From positions 2,647,001 to 2,711,000 of the forward strand of contig NZ_CP018911.1 of the NCBI RefSeq assembly GCF_004000605.1: a stretch of 64,000 nt of DNA, given 5' to 3'. The stretch's first letter is position 1, and each line of letters begins with the position of its first letter. The DNA is from Glycocaulis alkaliphilus. Lineage in GTDB: Bacteria; Pseudomonadota; Alphaproteobacteria; Caulobacterales; Maricaulaceae. Under the pieces are notes generated by a model. The model did no database searches. It worked only from the letters and a program-made list of their open reading frames with translations, and was not told the DNA's origin. Shown piece after piece: positions 892 through 64,000 of the stretch. The position numbers and the translations under genes were made by a program.

Positions 892-2949
892 TCAGGACGG
901 GGCAGGCATCCGCACCCGGACACGGGTGCGGGCGCTGCGCCCGTCCGCATCGACCACCGTAAGCTCGTAAAAGCCCGGCCCTTGCGGCTGCCAGAGTGAC
1001 TGTCCGCCTGCATCAAGCGCCACCGGTACGCCGCGCTGATACCAGCGCAGCGGCCCGATGCCGCGCGCCGACAGGGCAAATCCGCGCCCCGGCTCATCGG
1101 CCCACACTTCTGCGCCATCGGGCGGGAAAACGATGTCAGGGCCGGACACACCCCGGTCAAAGCGCGCCAGCGGCCCTGTGGCGTTCCTGGCTACAAGACT
1201 GTCTGTGCGCGACGCAACACCAGACGGATCACGCCGCGCGATGACATCAAAAATGTCGAACAGGGCAGGCAGGGCGGCCTGCCGTCCGGTCTCGCCGGGG
1301 CGCGGCGCGCCATCGGCCCGGCCTACCCAGACCACAACCGCGTAATTGCCCGAAACGCCCGCCGCCCAGGCATCGCGAAACCCGTAGGACGTCCCGGTCT
1401 TGTAGGCGATGGCGGGCGCGCCGCTGGTCAGGCGAGCGGGCATAAGGCCCGGCGGGGCGGGCGAGCGCTGCAGCACATCGACAAGCGTGGCAGCGGCAGA
1501 GCGGTCCAGCAGGCGGAAGCCCCGGCTTTCCCTGTTGGCCGCCGCCGCCTCCGGCGTCCAGGCAAGCGGCAATGCCTCGCCGCCTGCGCCGAGCGCCGCA
1601 AACATGACCGCGATCTCCTCTGCCGTAATGCCAAGCCCGCCGAGCGCGATGGCCAGCCCGGCATCGCCTTCGGTCGAGCGCGGCACAATGGCCCGCCCGC
1701 CGGCAAAGCTCATGGCGGCGAGAAAGCGGTTGGCCCCCACCGCGTCGAGCACCTGCACGGCCGGCACGTTGAGCGAATGCTGCAGCGCCTCGGCAATCGT
1801 CACATCGCCCCGGAAGCTGCGGTCGAAGTTTTCGGGGTTATAGTCGGCAAAGCGGCGCGGCAGATCGGCAATGCGCGTGCCGGGTCCTGCCAGCCCGTCC
1901 TCGAACGCCAGCCCGTAGATGAAGGGCTTCAAGACCGAGCCAGGCGAGCGCGCGCGCCGCGTCAGATCAATCCAGCCGCCCGGCCTGCCGCGCCCCGCAG
2001 ACCCCACCGCCGCGCGCACTTCGCGCCCGTCCAGCGAGACGATCAGGGCGGAAGCCTGCACATCGGGTCCGGCCTCGTTTGCCAGCGTCTCCAGACGCGT
2101 CTCCAACGCGCTCTGAAGGCGGATGTCGATTGTGGAGAGCACCTCCCCGCCTGCACGGGCCAGATGCTGCGAGGCATGCCAGGCGCGCGCCGGGAAGGCG
2201 CGGCGGGAGGGTGCCGGTTCTTCTGCCGCATCCGCCGCCCAGTCCGCACTGATCAGGCCAGCGCGCTCCATGCGCGCCAGCAGCCGCGCACGCGAGGCCA
2301 TCGCAGCATCGGGGCGCAGATCGGGACGGCGCGCTTCGGGTGCCTGCGGCAGGGCAATCAGGAGCGCGATCTCATCAGGGGTGAGCACGTCCGGCTCATG
2401 GCCGAACCACGCCCAGCTGGCCGCGCGCACGCCTTCCAGATTGCCACCATAGGGCGCGAGCGTCAGATAGGCTTGCAGGATTTCATGCTTGGAATAGCGC
2501 CGCTCCAGCTGGATAGCGCGCACCATCTCGATCAGTTTGGCTATAATCGTCCGGCGCGGGCGCGGCTCCAGCAGGCGGGCCGTCTGCATGGTGATCGTTG
2601 ACCCGCCCGACACAATCCGGCCAGAGCTGATGAGGGAGCCAACAGCGCGCGCCATCGCCAGCGGGTCAACGCCGTGATGGGTATAGAAGCGCTGGTCCTC
2701 GATCTCGATCAGGGCGGCCAGAAACGCCGGATCGACGGCTTCAGGATCAACCGGCAGACGCCAGCGTCCATCCTCCACCGGGAAGGCGCGCAAGGCCCGC
2801 CCCTCCCGGTCTGTGACCAGCGCGGAGACCTCCGGCATGGGCGGGGGCGGCAGGGCGTGATCGAGCCCTGCCAGCAATACGCCAGCAGCGAGGAGCGAGG
2901 CGAGCGGCACGCTCGCCCGCCTCAGCCCTATCGTCAGCCAGCCAGCCAT
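892..2949 (-). CDS. pbpC: Penicillin-binding protein 1C (bifunctional transglycosylase/transpeptidase)
   Basis: A 685-residue inner-membrane murein synthase with its catalytic domains in the periplasm. There is one N-terminal membrane anchor (about residues 12-30). The GT51 glycosyltransferase domain shows EDQRFYTHHG with catalytic Glu about 84, and GGSTITMQ at about 115-122. The transpeptidase domain has SVLK (Ser338), SLN (392-394) and KTGT (517-520). The C-terminal roughly 90 residues match the position of the BiPBP_C domain of PBP1C. Its ATG shares a base with the TAA of the upstream alpha-2-macroglobulin gene (TAATG), so the two are translationally coupled. A yfhM-pbpC pair is a widespread conserved arrangement, and the two proteins are thought to act together in envelope repair and defence. 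Confidence 0.95.
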   Translation of the reverse strand: MAGWLTIGLRRASVPLASLLAAGVLLAGLDHALPPPPMPEVSALVTDREGRALRAFPVEDGRWRLPVDPEAVDPAFLAALIEIEDQRFYTHHGVDPLAMARAVGSLISSGRIVSGGSTITMQTARLLEPRPRRTIIAKLIEMVRAIQLERRYSKHEILQAYLTLAPYGGNLEGVRAASWAWFGHEPDVLTPDEIALLIALPQAPEARRPDLRPDAAMASRARLLARMERAGLISADWAADAAEEPAPSRRAFPARAWHASQHLARAGGEVLSTIDIRLQSALETRLETLANEAGPDVQASALIVSLDGREVRAAVGSAGRGRPGGWIDLTRRARSPGSVLKPFIYGLAFEDGLAGPGTRIADLPRRFADYNPENFDRSFRGDVTIAEALQHSLNVPAVQVLDAVGANRFLAAMSFAGGRAIVPRSTEGDAGLAIALGGLGITAEEIAVMFAALGAGGEALPLAWTPEAAAANRESRGFRLLDRSAAATLVDVLQRSPAPPGLMPARLTSGAPAIAYKTGTSYGFRDAWAAGVSGNYAVVVWVGRADGAPRPGETGRQAALPALFDIFDVIARRDPSGVASRTDSLVARNATGPLARFDRGVSGPDIVFPPDGAEVWADEPGRGFALSARGIGPLRWYQRGVPVALDAGGQSLWQPQGPGFYELTVVDADGRSARTRVRVRMPAPS

Positions 2950-5900
2950 TACGGGCGGATCGTGACCTGCCCGGCCTCAGAGCGGGCAAACACGTCCGGC
3001 CGGTACATGTCTTCCACCACCGTGCCGGGCTGGACAAACTGCCCCGGCGTGACGGCGCGGACCATATAGGCCACCCGCACCGCATCGCGCCCGCGCGTAT
3101 TGATGGCCGCGATGAAGCGGTCATCGCGCGCCTCGGCCACTTGCGTGGAAGCCAAGTCACCGAGGAAGGCGTAGGGCCCGGTATTGCCCGCATCGCTCTG
3201 GCGCAGAATGCCCTCGATCTCGAAGCCCGCAGGCAGGAGATCGGCGACGATCAGCGGCATGGCGCGGGTCTGCTCCGGCGTGATGGTCAGGCTGACAATG
3301 ATCTGGTCACCGCGCCTGATGGCTGCTGTGTCGATAGCATTGCCGCGCCGGTCAGTAAGGGAGCGCTCGACACTCACGCCTTCGGACGCCGCATCAGGCG
3401 CTTCCACCGGCACCCCGCGCGCAAATGCCGTCACCCAGACCGGCTGCTGGCCCCGATTGGTCAGCTCCCGGCCCTCGCTCAGCTCATCGGCATCAAGGGT
3501 GACAGACTGACCTTCCAGCGGCGCACCGCCCCATTCCAGAGACAGGTTTTGCGCATCACCGGCAAAGGCACGCGCGGCCATCAGGACATGGGCCTGTTCC
3601 TGCGTGGTCATGCGCGAGGCTTCGGGCAAGTCACGCGCCAGCCGGGCCAGCAGACCCTCGACGCGATCTTCAATGCCTGCCTCGGCCACCAGAGCGGTCA
3701 CACCGGCCAGATCACGCACCGGGGTCTGATACCAGTCGCCGGCATTATTGTAGCCGAGCACGGAGATGGCGCTGTCAAACGCGCTCACCGCGCGGGCGCG
3801 ATCACCAATGGCGGCCAGCCCGGCCCCGATATGGGCGCGCGCCAGCGGGCTTTCGATACGGCCAAGCATTTCATCGTGCAGATAGCGAAGCCGCGCCCGG
3901 TCTCCCCGGCCCGCACGGGCCAGAAGGTAGGCGGCATAGGCGCTGCTGCGATGATTGATCCGGTCTTGCGTATCGCGGCTCCAGCGCGGATCGGGTGCGC
4001 TGGTGTCATAGCCATAGGCCTGCCACAGATCACCGCGCGCCACCGGCACCAGCGCATCAAGCGCGCGGGTCAGCGCCGCACGCGGCACGCTGTAGCCAGC
4101 CTCTGCAGCCCGCATCAGGAAATCGGTGGAATACGCACCCAGCCAGGGCGATGCCTGTCCGTCGCCAATGCGCCAGAGGCCGATAGCGCCATCCTCGCTC
4201 TGGCGGGCCAGCACCGATTCCACCGCCCGGCGCACGATGTCGTCTGCATCGGCGGGCGCATCCGCCCCCGACAGCCCGGCCATCTGCCCGGCATAGAGCA
4301 AGGGCAGGGCCCGGCTCACGGCCTGTTCGGTGCAACCATAGGGATAGCCCGACAGCGCCTCGTAGATCGCGGCCACATCGATGGGCGTTGCGGCGACGGA
4401 GAGGCGCAAAGCCCCGCTACCCGGTGCGAATACGCTAAGCGCATCGGCTGGCGGCTGCCAGGTTTCGCCCGGTCGCAGGGTGCGCCGCGTGATGGACGTC
4501 ATCGGCAGGAAGGCTGAACGCACCTCAATCGGATACTCATGCACCACCGTCTCGCCATCCGGCCCGGTGACAGAGAGCGAGAGCTCTGCAATCCCCGGCG
4601 AAGACGCGGCAGAGAGGGCGACGGCGCGGTCGGTGCGCTGACCCGCAGGCAGGCTTTGCGTGAAGGCAGCGTCGGCAAAGCTGACAGGACCGTCCGCTTC
4701 CAGAGCCACCGCATAATCACCCGGCGCGCCATCAATATTGTCCAGGGTCAGCGTGGCCGAGGCCGTATCACCCGGTGCCAGGAAGCGCGGCAGGATCAGC
4801 TCTGAGGGCACATCATCGCGCACGGTCAGGGGCTGGCTCGCCGAGCCGATACCCCGATCAGACCACGCCACCGCCATCAGGCGCAGCTCACCATTGAAGT
4901 CCGGAATATCGAAGCTCACTTGCGCGCGGCCCTGCCCGTCAAAGCGCACCGGGCCGGAGAACAGCGCCACCGTGCGGGTCGGCACTACGGACAGACCCGC
5001 AGCCCCGATCTCGTCACCGCCAGAGCGCACCGGCGCTGCCGGTCCCTGATTGGGGTCGAGCAGGCGGCCATAATCATCGAGCAGGTCAACGCCGAGGCGC
5101 GCCTTGCCGAAGAACCAGCTTTCCGGGTCCGGCGAGGCAAAGCCGGTCAGCAGCAATATGCCCTCATCGACGGCAGCCACCGTCACATAAGCCTGTTCGC
5201 GGGCCGGGCCGTCGCTGGCAGTAATCGTGAAATCAAAACGCTCGCGCGGATTGATCCGCTCGGGCGCATCCAGTGTCAGCTCGAATGTACGGTCCTCGAC
5301 ATTGACCGGCACGTGCAGCACGCCCACCGCGCGGCGCGGGGTGGGGCGTGTCACGGCATCTCGCGGGGTGAAGACAGACACCATCACATAGGCGCCAGCG
5401 CCCCAGTCAGCGGTGACGGGCAGCTCCACTTCGGTAGCGCCTTCACCCACTTCCAGCGTGCGCGAGAGAATGACCCGGTCAGTCGCCACCACCAGCTCGG
5501 CCTGCCCGGCATAGGGGGCAAAGATGGACACTTGCGCGGTTTCACCGGTTTGCGGCGCCGCAGACGGGCCGGACAGGCGCACACGGTCAGGGGCCGCCTC
5601 GCCATCTGCAGGGCGTCCGCCATAGCCGGACCAGAAGCCGAAGCTCGCCAGATCCGCGCCATCAGCCGACACGATGAGGGTGTAATCACCCCAGTCGAGC
5701 GAAGGCGTTTCGACGATGGCCGGGTTCTCGCCATCGAGGCGCACTAGGCCGGACTCAATCGGCACGACGCGCTGCGAACGCCGCCAGCGCCAGTCGCCAT
5801 TATCAGTGCGGTACCAGTCATACTGCCAGTCGGTACGGATCAGGCGCCAGTCCGCTTCCATCGCCAGCGCCGCGCCGTCCGCCCCGACACCGATCACGGA

Positions 5901-7853
5901 CAGGCGCGTGGACTGGCCACGGCGCACGGTATCGTCATCGCCTGCCATGCGGATACCGACATAGCGGTCGCGCGGGCGGTAAGGGATGCGCACATCATCG
6001 CTGACAGCGCGCCCGCCGGGTTCTTCCACGGTGATGATCGCGCGCGCCCGCAAGGGCAGCGAGGAATCGCGCCCTGCCCGGCCCGGCGCGACCGGCATGG
6101 CCGCATTGCCCTGCCCGTCCGTCATGGTATCGGGCAGATCGATCACCTCCTCGGCGAAGCGCTCGTCATGCCTGCCAAAGCGGAAGCCGGAAAACTCAGG
6201 GAAAGGGTTGGGATCAGGCTGGATGCGGGCCGTACCGCGAAGCTGCAGCCCCGCCCCCGGCGCGCCATAAAGGAAGCGCGTGAAGGTTTCCACCATGCGC
6301 GTCTGACCGGCGCGGATCGGTGTGTCCGTGTCGGCGGTCAGCGTCAGCGCGACGCGTTGCGGTACAAAATCCTCGACAGACAGGCTATGACTGGCCACTT
6401 CGCCCACACCGTCCACGTTGACGCTGAGGCGCCAGCGGCCACGGGCCGCTTCGCGCGGCAGCTCAAAGTCATGGAATATCGCACCGGCCTGCGCGGCGCG
6501 CTCAAAACGCACCTCCTCATGGGCGAGGCCATTGGGCGCAAACAGCGTGATCGTGCCGGGGCGGTCAGATAGAGCCCGGCCCTCGCTGTCGCGGATCATG
6601 GCCGAGGCGTGAATTGTCTCACCCGGACGGTAAATGCCCCGGTCCAGCCAGATGAACCCGTCCGCGCCCTCGGCGCGGTTACGTCCGCCAACCGGCTGGG
6701 CGGAGAGATCAACCGGCGCGCGGGCAAGATCCAGCACCGCAAAATCACCATCAGGGCCGTAGGCCATCAGGAGGCGCGGCGCATCGCCTTCCCGGCCCGA
6801 CACCAGCGCCTCGCCAAAGCGCACACGTCCGCGCTCATCGCTGCGGGCGGTCGCCAGCACTTCGTTGGAGCGGGCAATCAGCTGCACCTCGACGCCGGCC
6901 TGCGGCCGGGCGCTCTGCAGGGAGCGGACAATCGCATCAATCCCGTCACGCCCGCGATAGGCGGTAAAGGCAAGGTCGGTAACGATCAGCCAGCGCGCAG
7001 CGCGGGCGTAATCGCCATAGCGGGCCGTATCGATCTCGGCGAGATTTTCCGCGCGCAGGAAGTACGCGCCGGGGCGCAGATTGCCGATGGTTTCGGCCAG
7101 CGGAAATACGGTCGTGGTCATGGCGTTGGCATTGCCGGGCGTATCCATCTCGCCCTGCCAGACCGGCGATCCGGCCTCGCCCGGCTGTTCTTCGGAACCC
7201 AGCCAGTACCAGTCGCCGGACGCGGCGTTAAAGCCGGAAATGATCTGGCGGAAGGCGAGCGCACGGTCGGTCACGCGCGTCACCGTCACACGTACGGCAT
7301 CGACATTGACGGTCTCGATGGCCACGCCGTCAGCGTCCACACGCGGCAGAATCACGCCCGTACCGGCAAAGCCGACATAGGCCGGGCGCGAGGCAAAGCT
7401 CAGCGTATCTCTCTCTTCGGTTTCAAGGCGGCGCCCATCGGCAGACGGCAGACCTTCGCGCAAGATGAGGGTGCGCGTCTGGCCAAAGCTAAGCCCGCCA
7501 ATGCACAGGCGCTGGCCATCGACATTGAGAGCAACCGGCTCGTCCACTTCGACATAGGCGCTGTAATCGGTATCAGGATCGAGGGGAGCGGAGAAGGTCA
7601 GGCACAGGCGCGGCGCATCACCATCAATATCGGCCGCATAGCGCAGATACTCAAAACGGTCAGAGACGTCCGGCGTGGCGCGCGGCGCGTCGGCAGAGCG
7701 TGATTGCAGGGCAGGGCCTTCATCGCGCGAAGCCGGGGAAGGATCATCGCCGCAACCGGCCAGGGCGAGTGCGCCGGCGAGGCCCGCAAGGACCGCCACC
7801 CGCCGCAAGGACGCCGCACCGATCCGGCAAATATTTCCCGTACTCATCCCCAT
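2949..7853 (-). CDS. yfhM: Bacterial alpha-2-macroglobulin, thioester-containing lipoprotein (YfhM-like)
   Basis: A protein of about 1,634 residues that acts as a periplasmic protease trap. The chosen ATG at 7853 follows GGGAGG by 7 bases and starts a lipoprotein signal peptide with lipobox LAGC. An in-frame start at 7931 adds a leader unlike a signal peptide. The reactive thioester motif GCTEQ is present (Cys about 1174), followed by an alpha-helical thioester-domain-like segment. Macroglobulin-like beta domains fill the N-terminal two thirds, including the MG2-type segment containing WLDRGIYRPGETIH. In this family the bait region is cut by a protease, the thioester is exposed and the protease is trapped covalently. 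It is coupled to pbpC downstream. It lies beside HtrA and a group of exported cysteine proteases (10-22 kb), which is noteworthy for a protease inhibitor. Confidence 0.93.
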   Translation of the reverse strand: MGMSTGNICRIGAASLRRVAVLAGLAGALALAGCGDDPSPASRDEGPALQSRSADAPRATPDVSDRFEYLRYAADIDGDAPRLCLTFSAPLDPDTDYSAYVEVDEPVALNVDGQRLCIGGLSFGQTRTLILREGLPSADGRRLETEERDTLSFASRPAYVGFAGTGVILPRVDADGVAIETVNVDAVRVTVTRVTDRALAFRQIISGFNAASGDWYWLGSEEQPGEAGSPVWQGEMDTPGNANAMTTTVFPLAETIGNLRPGAYFLRAENLAEIDTARYGDYARAARWLIVTDLAFTAYRGRDGIDAIVRSLQSARPQAGVEVQLIARSNEVLATARSDERGRVRFGEALVSGREGDAPRLLMAYGPDGDFAVLDLARAPVDLSAQPVGGRNRAEGADGFIWLDRGIYRPGETIHASAMIRDSEGRALSDRPGTITLFAPNGLAHEEVRFERAAQAGAIFHDFELPREAARGRWRLSVNVDGVGEVASHSLSVEDFVPQRVALTLTADTDTPIRAGQTRMVETFTRFLYGAPGAGLQLRGTARIQPDPNPFPEFSGFRFGRHDERFAEEVIDLPDTMTDGQGNAAMPVAPGRAGRDSSLPLRARAIITVEEPGGRAVSDDVRIPYRPRDRYVGIRMAGDDDTVRRGQSTRLSVIGVGADGAALAMEADWRLIRTDWQYDWYRTDNGDWRWRRSQRVVPIESGLVRLDGENPAIVETPSLDWGDYTLIVSADGADLASFGFWSGYGGRPADGEAAPDRVRLSGPSAAPQTGETAQVSIFAPYAGQAELVVATDRVILSRTLEVGEGATEVELPVTADWGAGAYVMVSVFTPRDAVTRPTPRRAVGVLHVPVNVEDRTFELTLDAPERINPRERFDFTITASDGPAREQAYVTVAAVDEGILLLTGFASPDPESWFFGKARLGVDLLDDYGRLLDPNQGPAAPVRSGGDEIGAAGLSVVPTRTVALFSGPVRFDGQGRAQVSFDIPDFNGELRLMAVAWSDRGIGSASQPLTVRDDVPSELILPRFLAPGDTASATLTLDNIDGAPGDYAVALEADGPVSFADAAFTQSLPAGQRTDRAVALSAASSPGIAELSLSVTGPDGETVVHEYPIEVRSAFLPMTSITRRTLRPGETWQPPADALSVFAPGSGALRLSVAATPIDVAAIYEALSGYPYGCTEQAVSRALPLLYAGQMAGLSGADAPADADDIVRRAVESVLARQSEDGAIGLWRIGDGQASPWLGAYSTDFLMRAAEAGYSVPRAALTRALDALVPVARGDLWQAYGYDTSAPDPRWSRDTQDRINHRSSAYAAYLLARAGRGDRARLRYLHDEMLGRIESPLARAHIGAGLAAIGDRARAVSAFDSAISVLGYNNAGDWYQTPVRDLAGVTALVAEAGIEDRVEGLLARLARDLPEASRMTTQEQAHVLMAARAFAGDAQNLSLEWGGAPLEGQSVTLDADELSEGRELTNRGQQPVWVTAFARGVPVEAPDAASEGVSVERSLTDRRGNAIDTAAIRRGDQIIVSLTITPEQTRAMPLIVADLLPAGFEIEGILRQSDAGNTGPYAFLGDLASTQVAEARDDRFIAAINTRGRDAVRVAYMVRAVTPGQFVQPGTVVEDMYRPDVFARSEAGQVTIRP

Positions 7854-7967
7854 GGCCTGTCCTCCCTGCCTGCCCGCTAAGGGCGCCGCACTCTTGCATG
7901 GCGGCGGCGGGAATTCACCCCTCAATGGCAAATTTCCAAAGGATGAAAAACTACCTGCTCCAGCCGG

Positions 7968-18708: not shown

Positions 18709-21633
18709 ATGGCATGTCATCATTTCATGATCTGGGCACTGGGACTTGTCCTGCTGGCCGCACCCGGCCTTCAGGCACAGGAGACGCCGCCACCGCTTGC
18801 CCCATCGATTGTCCAGGCTGATGCGCGCGCCCTGATTGAGGCCGCGGAAGCCATCGACATGGAGGAGGATCCTGCCGGGGCCCGCGCCGCATGGCAAAGC
18901 GCCTACGACACGGTTCTCACGCTTGAAGGCGTGGCGCAGACCGACCGTGCCGCCATCCTCAACCAGCTTGGCTCAGCGATCTTCTATGCTGGCGGGCGCG
19001 AGGAAGCGCTTGGCCTCTTCCGCGAGGCCGCCAGCGTTTTCGAGGCCGCCGGCCCGGACTATCTCGAGCCTCTGGAGCAGGCGCTTGGCAATGTCGCCTC
19101 CATCCTTGGCACGCTGGGCCGGCTGGACGAAGCTGAAGCGGCCACCCGCGACGTGCTCGCCATCCGCCAGCAGCTCTACCCGGAAGATCATGTCCAGATC
19201 GCCCGCTCCTATTTTGAACTGGGCTCGATACTGAATGCGCGTGGCGAGCTGAACGATGCCATCGCGCTGGTCGAGCGTTCGCTGCGCATCCGCGAGACAG
19301 TGCTGGAGGAGGGCCATCCCCATATTGCGATGACGCAGGTGAGTCTGGCGGCGATCCTGATACGCGCCTACCGCTTTGCCGACGCCGCCGAGCTGTCACG
19401 CCGCGCCGCAGAACAGCTCGAGGCCAGCCTGCCGCCCGGCCACCCCTTTATCGGGTTCGCCCGCTCCAGCTATGCCGGCGCGCTCAATGCGTGGGGCCGC
19501 TACGAGGCGGCTGAGCCCTTGCTGCGCCGTATTCTGGAAGACCGGCGCGCCAGCCTTGGCGACGCACACCCGCAAGTCGCCGACACGCTCAATAATCTCG
19601 GCGTGGCGCTGTTCGGACAGGGCCGTTCGGCGGAAGCCCGGCCATTATTCCTGACGGCGCGCGACATTTACCGCAATGCGGCAGGTGCTGAGTCCGTCGA
19701 GGCGGCCCGCATGCAAATGAATGCCGCCGATACGGCGTTTGCGCTGGGCCAGTATGATGATGCCCGCACGGAATGGCTGGACGTGCTGGGCGTGTTCGAT
19801 GCCACAGGGACGGCAGGCCCGGACCGGATCAGGGTACTGGCCGAGCTGGCGGCCCTTGAGGCGCTGGACGGCAATCCGGCGCAGGGCCGGGACTATATCG
19901 CCAATGCGCGGATGCTGGCCGCCGCCTATCTGCCCGAAGGCCATGATCGCCGCCATGAGCTGGCGATCGACGAGGCATGGATTTCGGCCATGGATGGCGG
20001 CACCTTGCAGGTTGTGCCACAGGAAGTGCATGCCGCCATGACGGCCCTCTCCGGCAACCTGGATCTGGCAGATGTCGACAGCGCGCGGGACATGGCCCGC
20101 ACCCGCCAGCGCGCCTTCCGCCGCGCCCTCGACATCGCCTTCGCCGCTGGCGATACTCAAACTGCCTTGCGCTACATGCAGATGGTACACGCCACAGGGC
20201 TCGCTCTCGCCGCAGAGGCAACAGCCCTGAGGGTCAGCAGCGGCGGCGCGCAAACAGCAGACCTTGTCCGCGCCCGGCAGGACAGCTGGCGCGCCCTGCG
20301 TCTGGCCGAGGAAAACTATGTCCGCGTCCGCTCTGCCAGCGCATCACCCGACCCGCAGACACTCGCCGCCGCCCGCGACGCCTACGAGATGGCGCGGACA
20401 GCCATGAGCGGACTGTCACCGGACGGCAATCGCGCCCAAGGGCTGGAGACGCTCACCCTCGAAACCGTGCAACAAATGCTCGGTGCGGGAGAACACATCA
20501 TCGCCTTCGCCTTCACACCCGCTGGCGGGGTCAGCCTGCGTATCGGGCAATCGGACCTGGTAATGGACCGGCTGGCGATTGACCGCGATGCAGCACAATC
20601 AGCACTGGCCATTTTGCGCCCGGCACTGGAGGCTGGCGCCGCAGCCGGGGTGGCCCGGCCATTCCCGGCGGACGAGGCTCACCGTCTCTATGCGGGCGTT
20701 TTCACCCCCCGTCTGACACACGGGCTGGAAGAGGAGGCCGCGCTGTTCGTTCTGGCTGATGGCCCCTACCGTTCCATCCCCTTCCCGGTATTGCTGACCG
20801 GAGAGCCGTCCCGGCCGTTGGACAGCGAGGCGGCCTATGCCGGCGCGCCCTGGCTGATCGCGCGCCATGCGGTGACCACGCTGGCCACCCTTTCTGTGCT
20901 GCGCCAGCGCAATGACGGGCCGGGCAGCGCCGAGCCCTATCTGATCGGCTTCGGGGCTCCGGTCTTCTCCGGTGACACCGGGGCAGAGCCTGTCACGCTG
21001 GCGGCGCTGACGCGCAGCGCAAGCGAAGAAAGCGGCCGGGCTCTGTCCTCCCTTGCACCGCTCCCCGGCGCGCGTGCGGAGCTGGAAGAACTCGCCCGGC
21101 TCTTTGGCGAAGACCGGGCAGACATAAGGCTGGGCGTCTGGGCCACGGAGACGGCCGTCAAATCCGCCGACCTTAACCGCGCCAGCGTTCTGGTGTTCGC
21201 CACTCACGGCCTGTTGCCCGGTGAGCTGGAGACGGTGCTGGAGCCTGCCCTCGCCTTCACGCCGCCCGCACAGCCCGACGCGCTTGATGACGGCCTGCTC
21301 ACCGCGTCTGAAATTGCCGGCCTGCGGCTGGATGCGGACTGGGTCGTGCTGTCGGCCTGTAACACCTTCACCGCTGACGGCACCGCCACGGCCCCGGACC
21401 GGCTCGCGCAAGCCTTCCTCTATGCCGGCGCGCGCAGCCTGCTGGTGTCCCACTGGACGGTGCGCGACGACGCGGCAGCCTACCTTACTGCCCAGACCAC
21501 CAGGCGGGCACTGGCAGGTGAGGCAAGGCCGCAAGCCTTTCGCGGCGCCATGCTGGAACTGATGCGCAACGAGGCGATACCCGGCAGCGCCCATCCAGGC
21601 GTCTGGGGCCCCTTCGCCCTGATAGGCCGGTAA
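18709..21633 (+). CDS. Exported TPR-CHAT fusion protease
   Basis: A 974-residue protein with a signal peptide (hydrophobic core about residues 6-20, cut near LQA/Q). Residues about 40-420 are TPR repeats of the kinesin-light-chain/CHAT type (ALGNVASILGTLGRLDEAEAA, and SYFELGSILNARGELNDAIA with LRIRETVLEEGHPHIA). A helical linker follows (about 450-580), then a CHAT domain with catalytic His833 (FATHGLLPGE) and Cys884 (LSACNTF). It has a strong GGGGGAGGT ribosome-binding site. Its domain order equals that of the separate TPR and CHAT genes at 13663-16594. The C-terminal regions share runs such as DDGLLTASEIA and FYAGAR/LYAGAR. It probably cleaves or senses envelope proteins; the substrate is unknown. 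Confidence 0.92.
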   Translation: MACHHFMIWALGLVLLAAPGLQAQETPPPLAPSIVQADARALIEAAEAIDMEEDPAGARAAWQSAYDTVLTLEGVAQTDRAAILNQLGSAIFYAGGREEALGLFREAASVFEAAGPDYLEPLEQALGNVASILGTLGRLDEAEAATRDVLAIRQQLYPEDHVQIARSYFELGSILNARGELNDAIALVERSLRIRETVLEEGHPHIAMTQVSLAAILIRAYRFADAAELSRRAAEQLEASLPPGHPFIGFARSSYAGALNAWGRYEAAEPLLRRILEDRRASLGDAHPQVADTLNNLGVALFGQGRSAEARPLFLTARDIYRNAAGAESVEAARMQMNAADTAFALGQYDDARTEWLDVLGVFDATGTAGPDRIRVLAELAALEALDGNPAQGRDYIANARMLAAAYLPEGHDRRHELAIDEAWISAMDGGTLQVVPQEVHAAMTALSGNLDLADVDSARDMARTRQRAFRRALDIAFAAGDTQTALRYMQMVHATGLALAAEATALRVSSGGAQTADLVRARQDSWRALRLAEENYVRVRSASASPDPQTLAAARDAYEMARTAMSGLSPDGNRAQGLETLTLETVQQMLGAGEHIIAFAFTPAGGVSLRIGQSDLVMDRLAIDRDAAQSALAILRPALEAGAAAGVARPFPADEAHRLYAGVFTPRLTHGLEEEAALFVLADGPYRSIPFPVLLTGEPSRPLDSEAAYAGAPWLIARHAVTTLATLSVLRQRNDGPGSAEPYLIGFGAPVFSGDTGAEPVTLAALTRSASEESGRALSSLAPLPGARAELEELARLFGEDRADIRLGVWATETAVKSADLNRASVLVFATHGLLPGELETVLEPALAFTPPAQPDALDDGLLTASEIAGLRLDADWVVLSACNTFTADGTATAPDRLAQAFLYAGARSLLVSHWTVRDDAAAYLTAQTTRRALAGEARPQAFRGAMLELMRNEAIPGSAHPGVWGPFALIGR

Positions 21634-49819: not shown

Positions 49820-51481
49820 GTGTTCAACAGCACTCCTGGCCGGGTCATACTGGCCGCAGGCGCGGCGCTTGTCATACTGGCTGCGGCAGGCTTCTGGGCG
49901 TTTGACCGCTATTTCATCTATCTGCCAGGTCTGGTGCAGGACATCCGCAACCCGATAGGCCCAAATCGGGCAGTGGACTGGCAGCGCGGACCGGATACGG
50001 CTCCTGAGGGGGAGCGCCCGCCCAATATCATCCTCATCGTCGCCGATGATCTGGGATGGAATGACATCACCCTGCATGGCGGGGTAGCGGGCGGGAGCGT
50101 ACCCACACCCAATATCGACCGCATAGCCCGTGAAGGCGTACAACTGACCAATGCCTATGCCGCCAGCGGCACATGCGCGCCGTCACGCGCAGCGCTGATG
50201 ACCGGACGCTATCCCGCCCGCACCGGCTTTGAGTTCACCCCCACCCCGCCCGGCATGACGCAAGTGATCCGCCATGTTGAGCGCGGCCAGACAGAGCGCC
50301 GCCCCTTCCTTATCCGTGAGACGGATGGTGACGTCCCGGACTTTGCCGATATGGGCCTGCCCACTGACGAGATAACGCTGGCCGAGATGCTGTCCGGCGC
50401 GGGCTATCACACCATGCATATCGGCAAATGGCATCTGGGCAATACCCACGGGTCAGACCCGCTGGGTCAGGGCTTTGATGAAAGCCTGGAGCTGGCCGGC
50501 CTGCTCTACGCGCCAGCCGGAGCGCCGGACGTTGTCGAGGCCCGGCAGGATTTCGATCCCATAGATCAGGTTTACTGGGCGATCGGCCGGGCCGCCGTGA
50601 CGCACAACAATTCGGCGCGCTTCACGCCCGACGGCTATCTGACCGACTATTTCACCCGGGAGGCGGTGGAAGCCATCGAGGCCAACCGCAACCGGCCCTT
50701 CTTCCTCTATCTGGCGCACTGGGCGCCCCATTCGCCCCTGCAGGCCACGCGTGAGGATTATGACGCCCTCGCCCATATCGAGGACCACCCGCTTCGTGTC
50801 TACGCGGCGATGATCCGCGCGCTGGACCGGGGCATTGGCGAGGTGATGGACGCGCTGGAAGCCAATGGTATCGCCGATAACACCATCATCGCCTTCACCT
50901 CCGATAATGGCGGCGCGCACTATATCGGCCTTGAGGACATCAACGCGCCCTATAGGGGCTGGAAGGCGACCTTCTTCGGTGGCGGTATCCGCGTGCCCAC
51001 CTTCGTCAGCTGGCCGGGCAGGATCGAACCGGGCACCGAAATGCCGGGCCTTGCCCAGCATATCGATTTTGCGCCGACGCTGGCCGCCATCGCCGGAGCA
51101 TCACTGCCCGCAGACCGCCTGATCGACGGGGTGGACCTGACGCCCTTCCTGACCGGCGAGGCAGAAGGCGAGCCGCGCGAGACGCTGTTCTGGCGCAGCG
51201 GGCACTATGAGGCGGTGATCCACCAGGGCTGGAAGCTGCAACGCACACAGCGCCCTGACCGCGTCTGGCTGTTTGACCTTTCCAGTGATCCGGAAGAGCG
51301 CAACGACCTCTCCGCCGCCGAGCCGCAGCGCGTGGCCGCGCTGGCCGCGTTGCTGGATGAGCACGCACAAGGCCTCGCCGAGCCGTTATGGCCTTCGATT
51401 GCAGAAATGCCTGTCAGTATCGACCAGCCTCTGGGCTGGCCGGAAAGCGAGGATGACGAGTATGTTTACTGGCCCAATTAA
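49820..51481 (+). CDS. Formylglycine-dependent sulfatase (1)
   Basis: A 553-residue type I sulfatase with an N-terminal membrane anchor (8-28) that puts the enzyme in the periplasm. Metal-site block NIILIVADDLGWND lies near residue 70. The formylglycine motif CAPSR has Cys119, the residue oxidised by FGE, with MTGRYPARTGF after it. GKWHLGN and FTSDNGGAH are further active-site blocks. The start codon is GTG 49820, behind GGGGAGG. It overlaps the second sulfatase by 20 bases. The FGE-like gene at 53330 should activate both. The substrate (sulfated polysaccharide or other ester) is unknown. Confidence 0.94.
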   Translation: MFNSTPGRVILAAGAALVILAAAGFWAFDRYFIYLPGLVQDIRNPIGPNRAVDWQRGPDTAPEGERPPNIILIVADDLGWNDITLHGGVAGGSVPTPNIDRIAREGVQLTNAYAASGTCAPSRAALMTGRYPARTGFEFTPTPPGMTQVIRHVERGQTERRPFLIRETDGDVPDFADMGLPTDEITLAEMLSGAGYHTMHIGKWHLGNTHGSDPLGQGFDESLELAGLLYAPAGAPDVVEARQDFDPIDQVYWAIGRAAVTHNNSARFTPDGYLTDYFTREAVEAIEANRNRPFFLYLAHWAPHSPLQATREDYDALAHIEDHPLRVYAAMIRALDRGIGEVMDALEANGIADNTIIAFTSDNGGAHYIGLEDINAPYRGWKATFFGGGIRVPTFVSWPGRIEPGTEMPGLAQHIDFAPTLAAIAGASLPADRLIDGVDLTPFLTGEAEGEPRETLFWRSGHYEAVIHQGWKLQRTQRPDRVWLFDLSSDPEERNDLSAAEPQRVAALAALLDEHAQGLAEPLWPSIAEMPVSIDQPLGWPESEDDEYVYWPN

Positions 51482-53216
51482 ACGCGTCCTTACTGCGCTT
51501 TGCCTGGCGGGCGCACTGGCTGCTCCGGCATCTGGCGAAGAGCGGCCCAACATATTGCTCGTCATTCTCGATGATATCGGGTTCACCGATCTGGGTGCCT
51601 ATGGCAGCGAGATATCAACGCCCCACATGGACGCGCTGGCGGCGCGCGGCGCGCAGTTCACCAATTTTCACGTCGCGCCCACCTGTGCGCCGACGCGTGC
51701 CATGCTGTTGACCGGCGCAGACAGTCACCGTACCGGCATCCCCACCCTCGAACACATGGTCATCCCCGAATATCAGGGCCAGTTCGGCCATGAGGGCGAG
51801 CTCAATACCGCTGTGGCCACCATTGCCGAGCATTTGCAGGCGGCGGGCTATCAGGCCTTCATCACCGGCAAATGGCATCTGGGACGTTCACCCACCGCCC
51901 TGCCCGCCGCACGTGGCTTTGACCGCAGCTTCATTCTGGACTCGTCTGGCGCCGATAACTGGGAGCACCGCACCTATCTGCCTCACTACACTCACGCCGA
52001 ATGGTGGGAGGATTTCGAACCCGTCCACGAACTGCCCGACAATTTCTATTCGTCCGAGTTTCTGACCGACCGGCTGATCGCCTATATTGATGACCGGGAC
52101 GTGAACCGCCCCTTCCTGGCCGTGCTGTCGCTACAGGCCAACCACATCCCCCTGCAGGCCCCACGCGAATTCACCGAGCGCTATGCGGGCCGCTATGACG
52201 AGGGCTGGGACGTGCTGCGCGAGGAACGCCGCAGCGCCGCCATCGCGCGCGGGCTGGTGCCTGAAAGTACGCAGCTGGCAGAGCAGCCGCCGGGATTACG
52301 CGACTGGGAGGGGCTGTCCCGGCGCGAGCGCGAGTTTGCCATTGCCAGCCGCGAAGTGGCCGCCGGCATGCTGGAAGCGGCAGACCATCATGTCGGACGG
52401 CTTCTGGACTGGCTGGAGGCGCAAGGCCAGCTGGAGAACACGCTGGTCATCGTGCTGTCTGACAATGGCCCGGAATATAACCACCCCACCGATAACCGCG
52501 CCTTTGCCATGTGGCTCGCCGTGCAGGGCTATTCACGCAATCCGGAAAATCTCGGCGAACAGGGCACCTACGCCTTTATCGGCCCGGAATGGGCAACCGC
52601 CTCCGCCTCGCCGCTCTCTTTGTTCAAGTTCCATGCAGGCGAAGGCGGCGTACGCGTGCCCCTTATCGTCGCAGGGCCGGGGGTTGAGACCCTTGGCCTT
52701 GTCTCCGGCTTCAGCTTTGTCACCGACATCGCCCCGACCCTGCTGGACATGGCAGGCGCCCGTCCGCTTGTCGGGCGTGAACCCATAACGGGCCGCTCGC
52801 TCATGCCGGTGCTGAGCGGGCAGTCGGACACGGTCTATGGTCCGGACGACGCGGTGGGCCTTGAAATGTCGGGCATGTCGGCCCTCTGGCGCGGCGACTG
52901 GAAGCTGGCACGCAGCATGCCGCCTTTCGGCGATGAGCAATGGCGGCTCTTCAACCTGGCCACTGATCCGGGTGAGGCTCACGATCTTGCAGGCTCGGAG
53001 CCTGAAATCCTGGCGTCGATGATGGAGGCCTATGCCGCCTATGAGGCGCGTGTGGGCGTGATCCCGGTGCCAGAGGGCTTCAATGCCGCCGAACGCATTG
53101 CGGCGCTGGGCTGGAAAGCCTTCCTTGACCAGCACGGGCTGATGCTCGCCGGTATCGGCCTTCTTTTCGTGATGCTGCTGGGGGGCGGCCTCATTCTGCT
53201 GACCCGCCAGCGCTGA
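51462..53216 (+). CDS. Formylglycine-dependent sulfatase (2), C-terminally anchored
   Basis: A 584-residue sulfatase with a signal peptide (cut near ASGEE, residue 24), the metal block ILLVILDDIGFTD, the formylglycine motif CAPTR (Cys75), GKWHLG and LSDNGPEY. The C-terminal HGLMLAGIGLLFVMLLGGGLIL is a membrane helix followed by TRQR, so the enzyme is tethered on the periplasmic face. The start at 51462 overlaps the first sulfatase gene by 20 bases, and GAGG lies about 10 bases upstream. It is a paralogue of sulfatase 1 but has a different anchoring mode. It ends at a hairpin shared with the FGE gene. Confidence 0.92.
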   Translation: MFTGPIKRVLTALCLAGALAAPASGEERPNILLVILDDIGFTDLGAYGSEISTPHMDALAARGAQFTNFHVAPTCAPTRAMLLTGADSHRTGIPTLEHMVIPEYQGQFGHEGELNTAVATIAEHLQAAGYQAFITGKWHLGRSPTALPAARGFDRSFILDSSGADNWEHRTYLPHYTHAEWWEDFEPVHELPDNFYSSEFLTDRLIAYIDDRDVNRPFLAVLSLQANHIPLQAPREFTERYAGRYDEGWDVLREERRSAAIARGLVPESTQLAEQPPGLRDWEGLSRREREFAIASREVAAGMLEAADHHVGRLLDWLEAQGQLENTLVIVLSDNGPEYNHPTDNRAFAMWLAVQGYSRNPENLGEQGTYAFIGPEWATASASPLSLFKFHAGEGGVRVPLIVAGPGVETLGLVSGFSFVTDIAPTLLDMAGARPLVGREPITGRSLMPVLSGQSDTVYGPDDAVGLEMSGMSALWRGDWKLARSMPPFGDEQWRLFNLATDPGEAHDLAGSEPEILASMMEAYAAYEARVGVIPVPEGFNAAERIAALGWKAFLDQHGLMLAGIGLLFVMLLGGGLILLTRQR

Positions 53217-53228
53217 ACGGGAAAATGG

Positions 53229-53258
53229 CCCCGGATACGCATTTCATGCGTTCCGGGG
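53229..53258. terminator. Bidirectional terminator between sulfatase and FGE genes
   Basis: CCCCGGA-T-ACGCAT (53229-53242) pairs with ATGCGT-TCCGGGG (53246-53258) around a TTC loop with one bulged base, followed by TTTC and later TTAAAA. It lies between convergent genes. Confidence 0.65.
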
Positions 53259-53329
53259 TTTCACCCTTAAAATACATCTGCCTTGAACTCCCGGCCTGCG
53301 CAGCAGAGCCGGGACCTGGCGCAAAGAAT

Positions 53330-54256
53330 CTAGTCCGGCGCTGGTCCGCGCCAGATCGTGCGGAAGCCCAGATGCTCGGTGGAAAAGCGCTCATCGCCCG
53401 GCTGGCGCGCCGCCGGGCGGTAGCGGTGGCAATAGCTGTCCGAGCACAGGAATGACCCGCCCTTGATGACGCGGAAGCCCGGCTGCTCCCATTCGTCCTG
53501 CGTCCATTCCCAGACATTGCCCGCCATGTCGTAGAGCCCGTACCCGTTGGGCGCATAGCAGCCGACCGGCGCAAGCCCGGCATGACCGTCCGCGCCGCTA
53601 TCCTGCACCGGAAACGCGCCCTGCCAGTGATTGGCCATATAGGCCCCGTCCGGGCGCATCTCGTCGCCCCAGACATAAAGCGCACCATCAATGCCGCCGC
53701 GCGCGGCATGTTCCCATTCAGCCTCGCGGGGCAGATCGTGGCCGCGCCAGCGCGCATAGGCCAGCGCATCCTCATAGGCGATCTGTACGACCGGCCAGCT
53801 ATCCCGGCCCTCAATCGTGCTGGAGCGCCCTTGCGGATGACGCCAGCTCGCGCGCGGATCAAACCGCCACCAGGTGCGTATGTCCGACCAGTCGCGCACC
53901 TGCACGCCGGGGCCGAACACCCCGCCCCCGCCCGCATCCGGGCCTTCGCGCTCAGCCAGCGTCACATAGCCCGTCGCCTCCACGAAGGCGGCGAACTCGC
54001 CATTGGTGACCTCGTGAATGCCGATCCAGAACCCATCCACGTCGGCGCTACGCACCGGGCGCTCCTCGGGGAAAAAATCCTCCGATCCCAGCTGGACGGT
54101 GCCAGCCGGCACCCAGATCATGCCCGATGCCGGCGCGGCGGGGTCTGGAAGCGTCACAGGCAGGCAGGCCTCGATAGCCGGTTCGTCGCTGCAAGCGGCA
54201 AGGCCCGCCATCCCGGACAGCAGCGCTGCCAGTGCCAACCGATTGTTTGCCATCAT
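53330..54256 (-). CDS. Formylglycine-generating enzyme (sulfatase-modifying factor), lipoprotein form
   Basis: A 308-residue protein with lipoprotein signal peptide (lipobox LAAC, Cys22). Next come the FGE/SUMF1 blocks MIWVPAGTVQLGS, EVTNGEFAAFVEATGYVT, SWPVVQIAYEDALAYARWRG and LPREAEWEHAARGG. The copper-binding catalytic pair is in GGSFLCSDSYCHRYR (Cys271 and Cys276), with NVWEWTQDE before it. FGEs convert the CxPxR Cys of sulfatases to formylglycine with O2. Export with a lipid anchor means it would act outside the cytoplasm, as in the eukaryotic ER, on sulfatases translocated unfolded. It is convergent with the sulfatase genes. Confidence 0.92.
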   Translation of the reverse strand: MMANNRLALAALLSGMAGLAACSDEPAIEACLPVTLPDPAAPASGMIWVPAGTVQLGSEDFFPEERPVRSADVDGFWIGIHEVTNGEFAAFVEATGYVTLAEREGPDAGGGGVFGPGVQVRDWSDIRTWWRFDPRASWRHPQGRSSTIEGRDSWPVVQIAYEDALAYARWRGHDLPREAEWEHAARGGIDGALYVWGDEMRPDGAYMANHWQGAFPVQDSGADGHAGLAPVGCYAPNGYGLYDMAGNVWEWTQDEWEQPGFRVIKGGSFLCSDSYCHRYRPAARQPGDERFSTEHLGFRTIWRGPAPD

Positions 54257-61453: not shown

Positions 61454-64000
61454 CTACCAGCCCCAGCTCACGCCCGCCCGGCCAGAAACCTGGCCTGTGC
61501 GGAAGCCGGTCCCGACACCGACATTGAGGAAGACATTCTCCCGGTAGCGGCCGATCGCGCCGAAGCCGACAGCGCCCGAGCTGCTGTAGTGACCGTAATT
61601 GGCCGAGAAGGCGAAGGTCTGGCCCGGCTGTAATACGGTCGCGCCGCTGAGCGCCATCGCCATGGCGATACCGTCAGAATGCTGACGCAGCTGATCACTT
61701 TGCGCCATGACGCTGCTCTCCAGCCCGTCGACCCGGTCGAACCAGGGCTGGAAGTCCATCGTCGCCAGATTACCGGCCGCATCCGAGGTGACCATATAGG
61801 TCTGGCCCGACTGCGCGGCGCGGCTGGCCGCCGAGTTGATGCCGGCAAAGGTATAGGTGTTGCTGGACGTCCCGATCACCACCTGATTGTCGCGTGTGGT
61901 CTCCGCGCCCGATCCGATGGCAATGGCATTCGCATTCGTTGCCTGCGCATTGACGCCGATGGCAATCGAGCCTGAGCCGGTCTGTGCCGGGCTCATATCC
62001 CCCGCAGATGCCAGCCCCGCGCCGCCCGCATCCTGGGAGCCAGCCTGCGCGCCCGAACCGATGGCAATATCATTGCCGGAACTCGTCTGGCCGCCCTGCA
62101 CGCCGCCGGTCTGCAGCTCGGCAAGCTGCGTCGAGGCTTGCTGAAGCGCCTCCATCTGCGCCTGCATCTGGGCCTGAAGGGCCTCGATCTGGGCCTGCAG
62201 TGCTGCCACTTGAGCCGACGTGTCGCCCGATGGCGGTGCAGCGTCCTTGATCGCCTGTATCTCGGTCGCGTTCTCCGTGACCTTGCCGTCCAGCGCCGCG
62301 AACGCGCTGCCGACATCACCAAAACTGGTGCCCTGAATAATATAGGTTGGGTGAGTGAACGCACCGGCAGCATAGGCCGCCCCGCCCCCGAAGAAGCTGG
62401 CGATATCGCTTCCGAAGACCGACATGTCAAAGCCCGCTCCACCAGTTGCAGCGTTGAGCTGGGCCACGGTCACGGCGTCGGTGTCAGCAATGCCGTCGGC
62501 AACGTTCACCAGACGGCGCTCATTGGTGATGGAGCCGAACGAGACGGTGTACTCTTCATCCGCTTCGGAAAAGGCACCGATGGCAACGGCATTGTCCGCC
62601 GTCGCCGATGCGCTCCGGCCAAAGGCGATTGAATTGAAGTTGTGCGCGTCCGCACCCTGCCCGAACGCCAGGCCGTAAAGCCCACTTGCAGAAGCGGACG
62701 CACCAATGGCAACCGCTTCGCTCCCGCTCGCAACGGCGCTGCGGCCCAGCGCCAGCGTGTTGAGCGCACTCGCATTGGCCTGGAAGCCGAGCGCGACACC
62801 AGACGTGCCACTCGCCTGCGCAAGGGCACCAAAGGCCATCGCGCCCGTCGCCGAGGCATTGGAGGATGCGCCCAGCGCAATAGTGTTGAAGCCGGAGGAC
62901 GTGGCACCCTGACCGAAGGCCATCGAAAACAGGCCGCTGGCGGTGGATTCATGGCCCAATGCGATAGCGTCATTGGCCGAGGCGTCAGCCTCATGCCCCA
63001 CCGCGATAGCGCGCTCGCCAGTTGCATCGGCGCCCGACCCCAGAGCGGTGGATCCAATGGCTTCTGCCACCGCGCCAGAACCGACAGCCGTCGAGAAATC
63101 GGCCTCCGCGTCACTGTCAGCACCGATTGATGTCGCGCCCTGCCCCGTGGCGTGCGCGAACATGCCGAAGGCGGATGCACCGAATCCGTTGGCAACCGCA
63201 ACGGCGCCAAAACTGCTGGCCCCGTCACCGATGGCCTGTGCCTGGGTGCCGACAACCGTGCCACCTTCATTCTGGGAGAAGGCCGAATGGCCGATGGCGA
63301 TGCCGCCCTCTTCCTGCACCTGCGACAGACGGCCAACCGCGATTGAGCGAAAGCCCAGCGCGTAGGATTCCGGCCCGACCGCCAGAGCATCTTCTTCCAT
63401 CGCCCAGGCACCATGACCGAGGGCATGGGCATGGTTAGCCTGCGCGCGCGCCTCCGCACCAAACGCGATGGTGTTGGCGTGGGACGCTATGGATGCACCG
63501 CCAAGAGCGATACTGCTCAGTCCGCTGGCATTGGCGGCAGTGCCGATAGCAGTAGAAGACACGCCCGTTGCGCTAGCACTTGACCCCAGAGCGATTGCGG
63601 CATCGGCGTCGGCCACGGCGCCAAGGCCCTGGGCAATGGACCCATCCCCATTCGCCTGGCTCATTGCGCCGAGAGCCAGAGAGCCCGCGCCTTGCGCCGA
63701 TGACATCGCTCCGAGAGCTGTCGAACTTTCGCCAGACGCCGAGGCCATATTGCCTACGGCAACAGCACTCTCCGCGCTGGCATCGGCTTGAGCGCCCACA
63801 GATACCGCGCCTTCACCGCTTACCTGAGCTTCATATCCCAGCGCTACACCTCTGTCAGCCATGGCGAGACTTAGGGCGCCGATCGCCAAAGCGCCCTCAT
63901 TCTGCGACACGGCAAACGCACCGACGGCCAAGCCACCTAACGCTTCCGCACGAGCGGAATTGCCAATGGCGGTAGAGCCAATGCCGAACGCCCGCGCGTT
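61454..64000 (-). CDS. YadA-like trimeric autotransporter adhesin, 5' end beyond window
   Basis: At least 848 residues; the reading frame is open to the last base of the window (no start seen), so the N-terminus is missing. About 30 imperfect 14-residue YadA head repeats (such as AIALGSSASATGVS and STAIGTAANASGLS) form a left-handed beta-roll. They end at a neck-like ERRLVNVADGIADTDAVTVAQL. A spacer and a coiled-coil stalk (ALQAQIEALQAQMQAQMEAL) follow. A second, short head block (GSIAIGVNAQATNANAIAIG) lies after it, then the C-terminal anchor (about 70 residues, ending AGVSWGW) that forms the 12-strand outer-membrane pore as a trimer. It is a surface adhesin. Head repeats vary, so slippage could alter its length. 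Confidence 0.93.
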   Translation of the reverse strand, partial: NARAFGIGSTAIGNSARAEALGGLAVGAFAVSQNEGALAIGALSLAMADRGVALGYEAQVSGEGAVSVGAQADASAESAVAVGNMASASGESSTALGAMSSAQGAGSLALGAMSQANGDGSIAQGLGAVADADAAIALGSSASATGVSSTAIGTAANASGLSSIALGGASIASHANTIAFGAEARAQANHAHALGHGAWAMEEDALAVGPESYALGFRSIAVGRLSQVQEEGGIAIGHSAFSQNEGGTVVGTQAQAIGDGASSFGAVAVANGFGASAFGMFAHATGQGATSIGADSDAEADFSTAVGSGAVAEAIGSTALGSGADATGERAIAVGHEADASANDAIALGHESTASGLFSMAFGQGATSSGFNTIALGASSNASATGAMAFGALAQASGTSGVALGFQANASALNTLALGRSAVASGSEAVAIGASASASGLYGLAFGQGADAHNFNSIAFGRSASATADNAVAIGAFSEADEEYTVSFGSITNERRLVNVADGIADTDAVTVAQLNAATGGAGFDMSVFGSDIASFFGGGAAYAAGAFTHPTYIIQGTSFGDVGSAFAALDGKVTENATEIQAIKDAAPPSGDTSAQVAALQAQIEALQAQMQAQMEALQQASTQLAELQTGGVQGGQTSSGNDIAIGSGAQAGSQDAGGAGLASAGDMSPAQTGSGSIAIGVNAQATNANAIAIGSGAETTRDNQVVIGTSSNTYTFAGINSAASRAAQSGQTYMVTSDAAGNLATMDFQPWFDRVDGLESSVMAQSDQLRQHSDGIAMAMALSGATVLQPGQTFAFSANYGHYSSSGAVGFGAIGRYRENVFLNVGVGTGFRTGQVSGRAGVSWGW

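Follow-up and report, generated by a model that had tools for sequence, protein, structure and literature searches.

According to the excerpts of PMC4505483 available, the prokaryotic formylglycine-generating enzyme (FGE) "resides in the cytosol", and the S. coelicolor FGE is cytosolic. These statements agree with the preliminary description of the present DNA, which had taken the studied bacterial FGEs to be cytosolic. Excerpts of other papers state that formylglycine (FGly) is formed on the unfolded chain (PMC5066984), that the sulfatase motif is defined as (C/S)-x-(P/A)-x-R, that the maturase of E. coli is elusive, and that the S. meliloti choline sulfatase was characterised in its unmodified form (all PMC6189696). 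Cys-type sulfatases have been described as typically cytosolic and Ser-type sulfatases as periplasmic (PMC3920027, excerpt), and a cytosolic mycobacterial FGE has been co-expressed for sulfatase production in E. coli (PMC8746622 and PMC6923384, excerpts). FGE genes and exported sulfatases were counted in PMC6388578, the available part of which does not give the compartment of the FGE. Proteins of the FGE fold that are exported but do not belong to the catalytic FGE subfamily have been described (PMC5915273, excerpt), and no exported catalytic FGE was named in the literature searched (titles, abstract openings, and passages, with few subscription journals).

The window, the whole 64,000-nucleotide stretch of Glycocaulis alkaliphilus DNA that was analysed, contains an FGE gene (53330–54256, minus strand) convergent with a pair of sulfatase genes. 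The encoded protein of 308 residues is a predicted lipoprotein. It matches PF03781 with an E value of 1.5e-73 (Pfam), and its closest sequence in the PDB is the FGE of T. curvata (6s07, E 5.4e-69). The predicted structure has a mean pLDDT of 90.7 (58–59 for the first 20 residues), and the best Foldseek matches of this model are the human, T. curvata, and S. coelicolor FGEs (human 1y1j, E 3.0e-30). Both catalytic cysteines named in the preliminary description, C271 (53444–53446) and C276 (53429–53431), were confirmed; they lie in the stretch GGSFLCSDSYC (cysteine pair at 53429–53446, minus strand) and align with the corresponding pair in 6s07 and in the human enzyme. The domain and fold, the catalytic, copper-binding Cys pair, and a Cys-type sulfatase partner in the genome are those of an aerobic FGE (SUMF1 type). 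The scores for other members of the fold are below their cut-offs: 100 bits against 350 for GldK/PorK (TIGR03525), and 86, 79, and 58 bits against equivalog cut-offs of 360, 420, and 500 for EgtB, SenA, and PvdO, respectively. These identities were rejected.

The N-terminus of the FGE, MMANNRLALAALLSGMAGLAAC followed by SDEP, fits a lipoprotein signal peptide (residues 1–22, 54191–54256, minus strand) ending in the lipobox LAAC (54191–54202), in which C22 would be the lipidated residue. The lipoprotein signal proposed earlier is therefore upheld. Export signals were assigned throughout by home-made simple rules and inspection by eye; of 14 window proteins, including 8 of cytosolic type, the lipobox rule called the FGE alone, and of 321 control ORFs, some of which are real lipoproteins, it called 26. 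The stretch GAGGGGA immediately precedes the start codon. An internal start at Met46, which would give a cytosolic form, was rejected because no SD-like site was read by eye in front of it, and a cytosolic short form is thus without support. An Rfam search gave no match, and a promoter and terminator scan gave results at about chance level.

Sulfatase 1 (553 aa, GTG start, 49820–51481, plus strand; PF00884, E 2.8e-53) has an N-terminal transmembrane (TM) anchor and the motif CAPSR (C119, 50174–50188), and its gene is preceded by GGGGAGG. Sulfatase 2 (584 aa, 51462–53216, plus strand; PF00884, E 8e-57) has a signal peptide (about 51462–51533), the motif CAPTR (C75, 51684–51698), and a C-terminal TM segment (about 53142–53204) with a hydrophobicity of 2.46 over 18 residues. 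The two genes overlap by 20 bp; the mechanically derived ORF of sulfatase 2 begins with the TTG at 51273, but the ATG at 51462 is more probable as the start. With PF00884 and the (C/S)-x-(P/A)-x-R motif, both are type I (S1) sulfatases, and neither reaches an NCBIfam equivalog cut-off. The export signals and CxPxR motifs ascribed to the two proteins at the outset are present in both. The same pair of architectures was found again in other loci, where the C-terminal TM segment is present in all 12 uncut sulfatase-2-type ORFs from 20 chosen loci (8 further ORFs were cut by the locus edge). Elsewhere, the window encodes a YadA-type trimeric autotransporter adhesin with many head repeats (61454–63931, minus strand), a penicillin-binding transglycosylase/transpeptidase with a BiPBP_C domain adjoining a bacterial alpha-2-macroglobulin (892–7931, minus strand), and a CHAT domain fused to TPR repeats (18709–21633, plus strand).

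The genome consists of one contig of 3,019,659 bases (3.02 Mb). A PF03781 search of it found the window FGE and one other gene, matched in two pieces; this second gene is EgtB-like and lacks the catalytic Cys pair, by which a second catalytic FGE was ruled out. A PF00884 search found both window sulfatases and one weak match (28 bits), the sequence of which reads as a phosphodiesterase-like lipoprotein. The anSME search (TIGR03942, E 0.001) gave no match in the genome. The window thus carries the sole catalytic FGE and the sole two clear sulfatases found. Since the catalytic FGE is single and anSME has no match, the only FGly-making enzyme of known type in this genome is itself predicted to be exported. 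The pairing of an exported FGE with exported Cys-type sulfatases, as first proposed, is backed by these sequences and by the relatives described below, and neither a cytosolic FGE nor an anSME was found in the genome. The three genes would form a self-contained envelope module: a single catalytic FGE that bears a lipoprotein signal, and two CxPxR sulfatases of Sec type with membrane anchors.

Among 119 related genomes including its own, an FGE match was found in 60 and a sulfatase match in 66 (E 1e-20); 58 genomes have both, 2 only an FGE, 8 only a sulfatase, and 51 neither. Two members of the same genus (G002 and G004) have neither at this threshold. We examined 64 distinct FGE ORFs at the order level, leaving out two fragments from G031. 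Both catalytic cysteines are invariant in all 64; a lipobox is present in 53, another signal peptide or TM segment in 7, and no signal in 4. One related genome (G046) has two FGE copies, with a TGA stop within one match (L011, G046:C1:762879-763796). In a class-wide sample, PF03781 was matched at E 1e-40 in 126 of 337 genomes; the best loci listed included 28 new ones, 22 of them catalytic (15 exported and 7 cytosolic) and 6 non-catalytic. One extra search added 2 further catalytic FGEs, both cytosolic, and a scan of named genomes showed the catalytic motif in 60 of the best 80 loci listed.

Altogether, 148 distinct catalytic FGEs were collected, and 144 of them were classed: among the loci listed, 112 are predicted to be exported (77 with a lipobox, 35 with a signal peptide or TM segment) and 32 to be cytosolic. 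All 148 were classed by eye from their N-termini, the lipobox class being the default unless a TM segment or signal peptide, a cytosolic N-terminus, or an unclear one was seen; L231 is truncated by the end of its contig, and the lipoboxes of L237 and L238 are weak. Only 2 of the 77 lipobox FGEs have D at position +2, and the FGE may sit in either membrane. The phenomenon is broader than the preliminary description suggests: exported FGEs are not unusual in two-membrane bacteria, and the lipid is one anchor among several (77/112 have a lipobox, 35/112 a signal peptide or TM segment).

Actinomycetota, Bacillota, and Chloroflexota have one membrane. Among the classed rows of the named loci listed, their FGEs are cytosolic in 11 of 11 cases, and those of Bacteroidota are exported in 21 of 21. 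Exported FGEs were also found among the named loci listed in Planctomycetota (4/4), Verrucomicrobiota (2/2), Cyanobacteriota (3/3), Gamma- and Betaproteobacteria (4/4), Myxococcota (1), Acidobacteriota (1), and one unplaced bacterium. The cytosolic ones in this set further include those of Alphaproteobacteria (6/6), one unplaced proteobacterium, and one member of Vulcanimicrobiota; therefore, the two-membrane groups are not uniform. A Parafrankia FGE (L249) is split across two reading frames by a frameshift or a sequencing error, and a Steroidobacter homologue (L261) has an altered motif (GGSFLCVPESCND) and perhaps a different function.

A tree of the FGEs was calculated with 147 rows, of which 144 carry a state, and was compared with 300 label shuffles. 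The exported or cytosolic state changes 3 times on the tree, while the shuffles gave a minimum of 23 and a mean of 29.2 changes. The anchor type changes 18 times among the exported rows. Under a mixture model with one long row removed, there are 3 compartment changes and 15 anchor changes. If only well-supported branches are considered, 2 compartment changes are required in both trees, and 8 changes of the lipobox label in the first. The compartment is thus kept while the anchor type switches, which is the pattern expected if the compartment matters. One cytosolic clade (97*) includes the human and T. curvata FGEs together with 14 bacterial rows. Another, likewise cytosolic (98*), comprises 17 rows, and a sulfatase with a Tat signal or without a signal adjoins the FGE in 8 of the 13 with a usable neighbour.

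We compared the compartment of each FGE with the export route of a Cys-type sulfatase encoded within 5 kb. The set had 84 rows, of which 81 were usable after correction, the query being added; the neighbours of L024 and L016 were set by hand to Sec and that of L209 to cytosolic. Among the loci listed, exported FGEs have a Sec-route neighbour in 57 of 58 cases and a Tat-route neighbour in 1, and cytosolic FGEs have a Tat-type or cytosolic neighbour in 17 of 23 cases and a Sec-route neighbour in 6. The Fisher p value of 1.3e-11 applies to rows that are related by descent; the independent contrasts number only 2–3, mostly in the same direction and never in the opposite one, and are too few for a test. 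The Tat system transports folded proteins. Sec chains reach the outside unfolded and can therefore be modified there, whereas Tat proteins fold inside, so that their modification must take place inside. Two genomes (G152 and G339) with two FGEs each are natural controls in this respect: the exported FGE lies beside a TM-anchored sulfatase, and the gene of the cytosolic FGE lies directly 3' of that of a Tat-signal sulfatase, with the open frames overlapping.

In genomes with exported FGEs only, 154 of the 174 classed Cys-type PF00884 proteins are Sec-type, and in genomes with cytosolic FGEs only, 9 of 40 are. A strict genome-wide matching of the compartments of FGE and sulfatases is ruled out by these numbers. 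The count used hand-made Tat and Sec overrides and covered the 150 order-level matches listed, outside which lie two genomes with no FGE (G032 and G078), and 18 of 108 class-level matches, weaker ones, were left out. Also left out were 14 motif-less rows, 2 that are truncated, 9 from three genomes that have FGEs of both kinds, 6 from genomes with no FGE, and the sulfatase pair of the window itself. G031 entered the count as exported without its FGE pieces; when it is omitted, 150 of 169 proteins are Sec-type and 19 of 169 are exceptions.

The 20 exceptions among the 174 proteins of exported-only genomes are cytosolic or Tat-type. No anSME match at E 1e-10 was found in the 17 genomes that hold exceptions or in the 8 genomes with a sulfatase and no FGE. 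Therefore, part of the FGly may arise by another route or never be formed, and the exported FGE gives only part of the FGly picture in these cells. Some exception proteins may be phosphonate hydrolases, active without FGly, or dependent on a system like the one postulated for E. coli. Fifteen cytosolic Cys-type PF00884 proteins (L120, L183, L172, L177, L381, L387, L378, L389, L355, L360, L345, L324, L382, L376, and L380) were found in genomes in which neither a cytosolic FGE nor an anSME match was found (G100, G088, G070, G075, G126, G240, G222, G324, G121, G389, G120, and G236), and they point to another possible FGly route. Several of them contain a C[AG]PSR...HTG[ML]Y stretch, which presumably resembles that of phosphonate hydrolases. 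Five genomes (G041, G042, G086, G090, and G092) encode Cys-type sulfatases (L125, L104, L181, L186, and L189), four of the five with Tat-like signals, and have no match to FGE (E 1e-20) or anSME.

A further cysteine, C233 (53558–53560, minus strand) in a GC[FY] loop, is present in 67 of the 112 exported FGEs and in none of the 32 cytosolic ones among the loci listed. All 67 FGEs with C233 also have a Cys in the linker that precedes the domain (found by rule in 60 and by eye in 7, including the query). The rule also finds an upstream Cys in 5 exported FGEs without C233 and in 8 cytosolic FGEs, which speaks against a disulfide. In the window FGE this residue is C31 (54164–54166, minus strand), which lies in a low-confidence part of the structure model. 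We predict from sequence that C31 and C233 form a disulfide, as would befit an oxidising compartment. Because no more than 4 changes of C233 are needed on the tree, it is mostly one inherited trait, which also weakens the argument, and the independent contrasts are too few for a test of the Cys pair.

Taken together, these observations make it likely that the sulfatases of this locus undergo an ER-like maturation in the periplasm after Sec export. This reading draws on the sole FGE and sulfatases of a genome without an anSME match, the co-occurrence of the two families, the conserved compartment, the routes of the neighbours, the two genomes with both kinds of FGE, and the Cys pair of exported enzymes only. 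It is weakened by the 20 exceptions, the shared descent of the neighbour pairs, the six cytosolic FGEs that adjoin Sec sulfatases, the few changes of C233, and the low model confidence around C31. Sec would deliver both sulfatases unfolded. The FGE, with its lipid on C22, would face the periplasm and bind the exposed CAPSR or CAPTR stretch of a chain that has yet to fold; using the copper and O2 of the periplasm, it would oxidise the Cys to formylglycine. The order of events would be that of the eukaryotic ER and not that described for the cytosolic prokaryotic FGE, and C31 and C233 would be joined in a structural disulfide that fits an oxidising space. Both sulfatases would then act as membrane-anchored periplasmic enzymes on a sulfate ester.

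Alternatively, the FGE might act in the cytoplasm on nascent sulfatases before its own export, through slow export or a leaky dual location, the periplasmic enzyme being an end state. The 6 of 23 cytosolic FGEs that adjoin Sec sulfatases among the loci listed are consistent with this, and maturation before export therefore seems possible in some bacteria. However, no SD-like site precedes Met46, 60 of the 64 order-level FGEs retain an export signal while its type changes, and G152 and G339 have a separate cytosolic FGE beside the Tat-type sulfatase; we consider cytoplasmic action unlikely for this locus. It is quite improbable that the window sulfatases are matured by something other than the exported FGE, with FGly made by a cytosolic system such as the one postulated for E. 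coli and the lipoprotein having another substrate, because the genes are adjacent and 58 of the 68 genomes with an FGE or a sulfatase have both. Moreover, among six genomes with no FGE whose listed sulfatases were read, Sec Cys-type enzymes occur in two, and one of these two genomes is 75% complete. Cytosolic or Tat Cys-type enzymes are encoded in genomes that have neither a cytosolic FGE nor an anSME match, which argues for such a system, as does the elusive maturase of E. coli (PMC6189696, excerpt).

The window protein could also be a non-catalytic FGE-fold lipoprotein of the GldK/PorK kind. Lipoproteins of this fold are known, and the GldK model does give 100 bits, but this score is under the 350-bit cut-off, the catalytic Cys pair is invariant in 64 of 64 ORFs, and the nearest structures are true FGEs, which makes this identity very improbable indeed. 

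It is fairly likely that post-translocational maturation in the periplasm is the rule in two-membrane bacteria with a catalytic FGE. The enzymes concerned would form an exported branch whose anchors can replace one another and a large part of which has a disulfide of its own. The bacterial model, drawn from cytosolic enzymes, would then describe an exception that goes with one-membrane cells and with sulfatases that are cytosolic or leave by Tat. If this is true, a post-translational modification moves to the opposite side of the membrane in a large share of bacteria, and bacteria offer a model of the ER reaction, with an unfolded chain, an oxidising space, and copper supplied in the envelope. 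It would also account for the different locations of the FGEs that go with Sec and with Tat sulfatases, and it bears on the production of marine and gut-type sulfatases in E. coli.

The FGE of T. curvata is cytosolic. The window FGE shares its domain, fold, and Cys pair with this enzyme (6s07 and 5nxl) and with that of S. coelicolor (2q17); however, the T. curvata FGE belongs to a cytosolic clade and, unlike the window FGE, has no Cys at the place of C233. Human FGE (SUMF1) works after translocation in the oxidising ER (PMC4505483, excerpt), as is proposed here for the window FGE, but it groups with the cytosolic bacterial clade, so that the likeness in location need not be inherited. GldK/PorK and OCTIN have the FGE fold and are exported in bacteria, like the window FGE (PMC5915273, excerpt; PDB 9mzu); they are not known as FGly makers, whereas the window FGE has the catalytic cysteines and sulfatase neighbours. 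The radical SAM maturase anSME also makes FGly in sulfatases (PMC6388578, excerpt) but belongs to a different enzyme family. In contrast to the description of Cys-type sulfatases as typically cytosolic in the excerpt of PMC3920027, most of those examined here bear Sec signals. What would set the present system apart is that the same enzyme works on the opposite side of the membrane.
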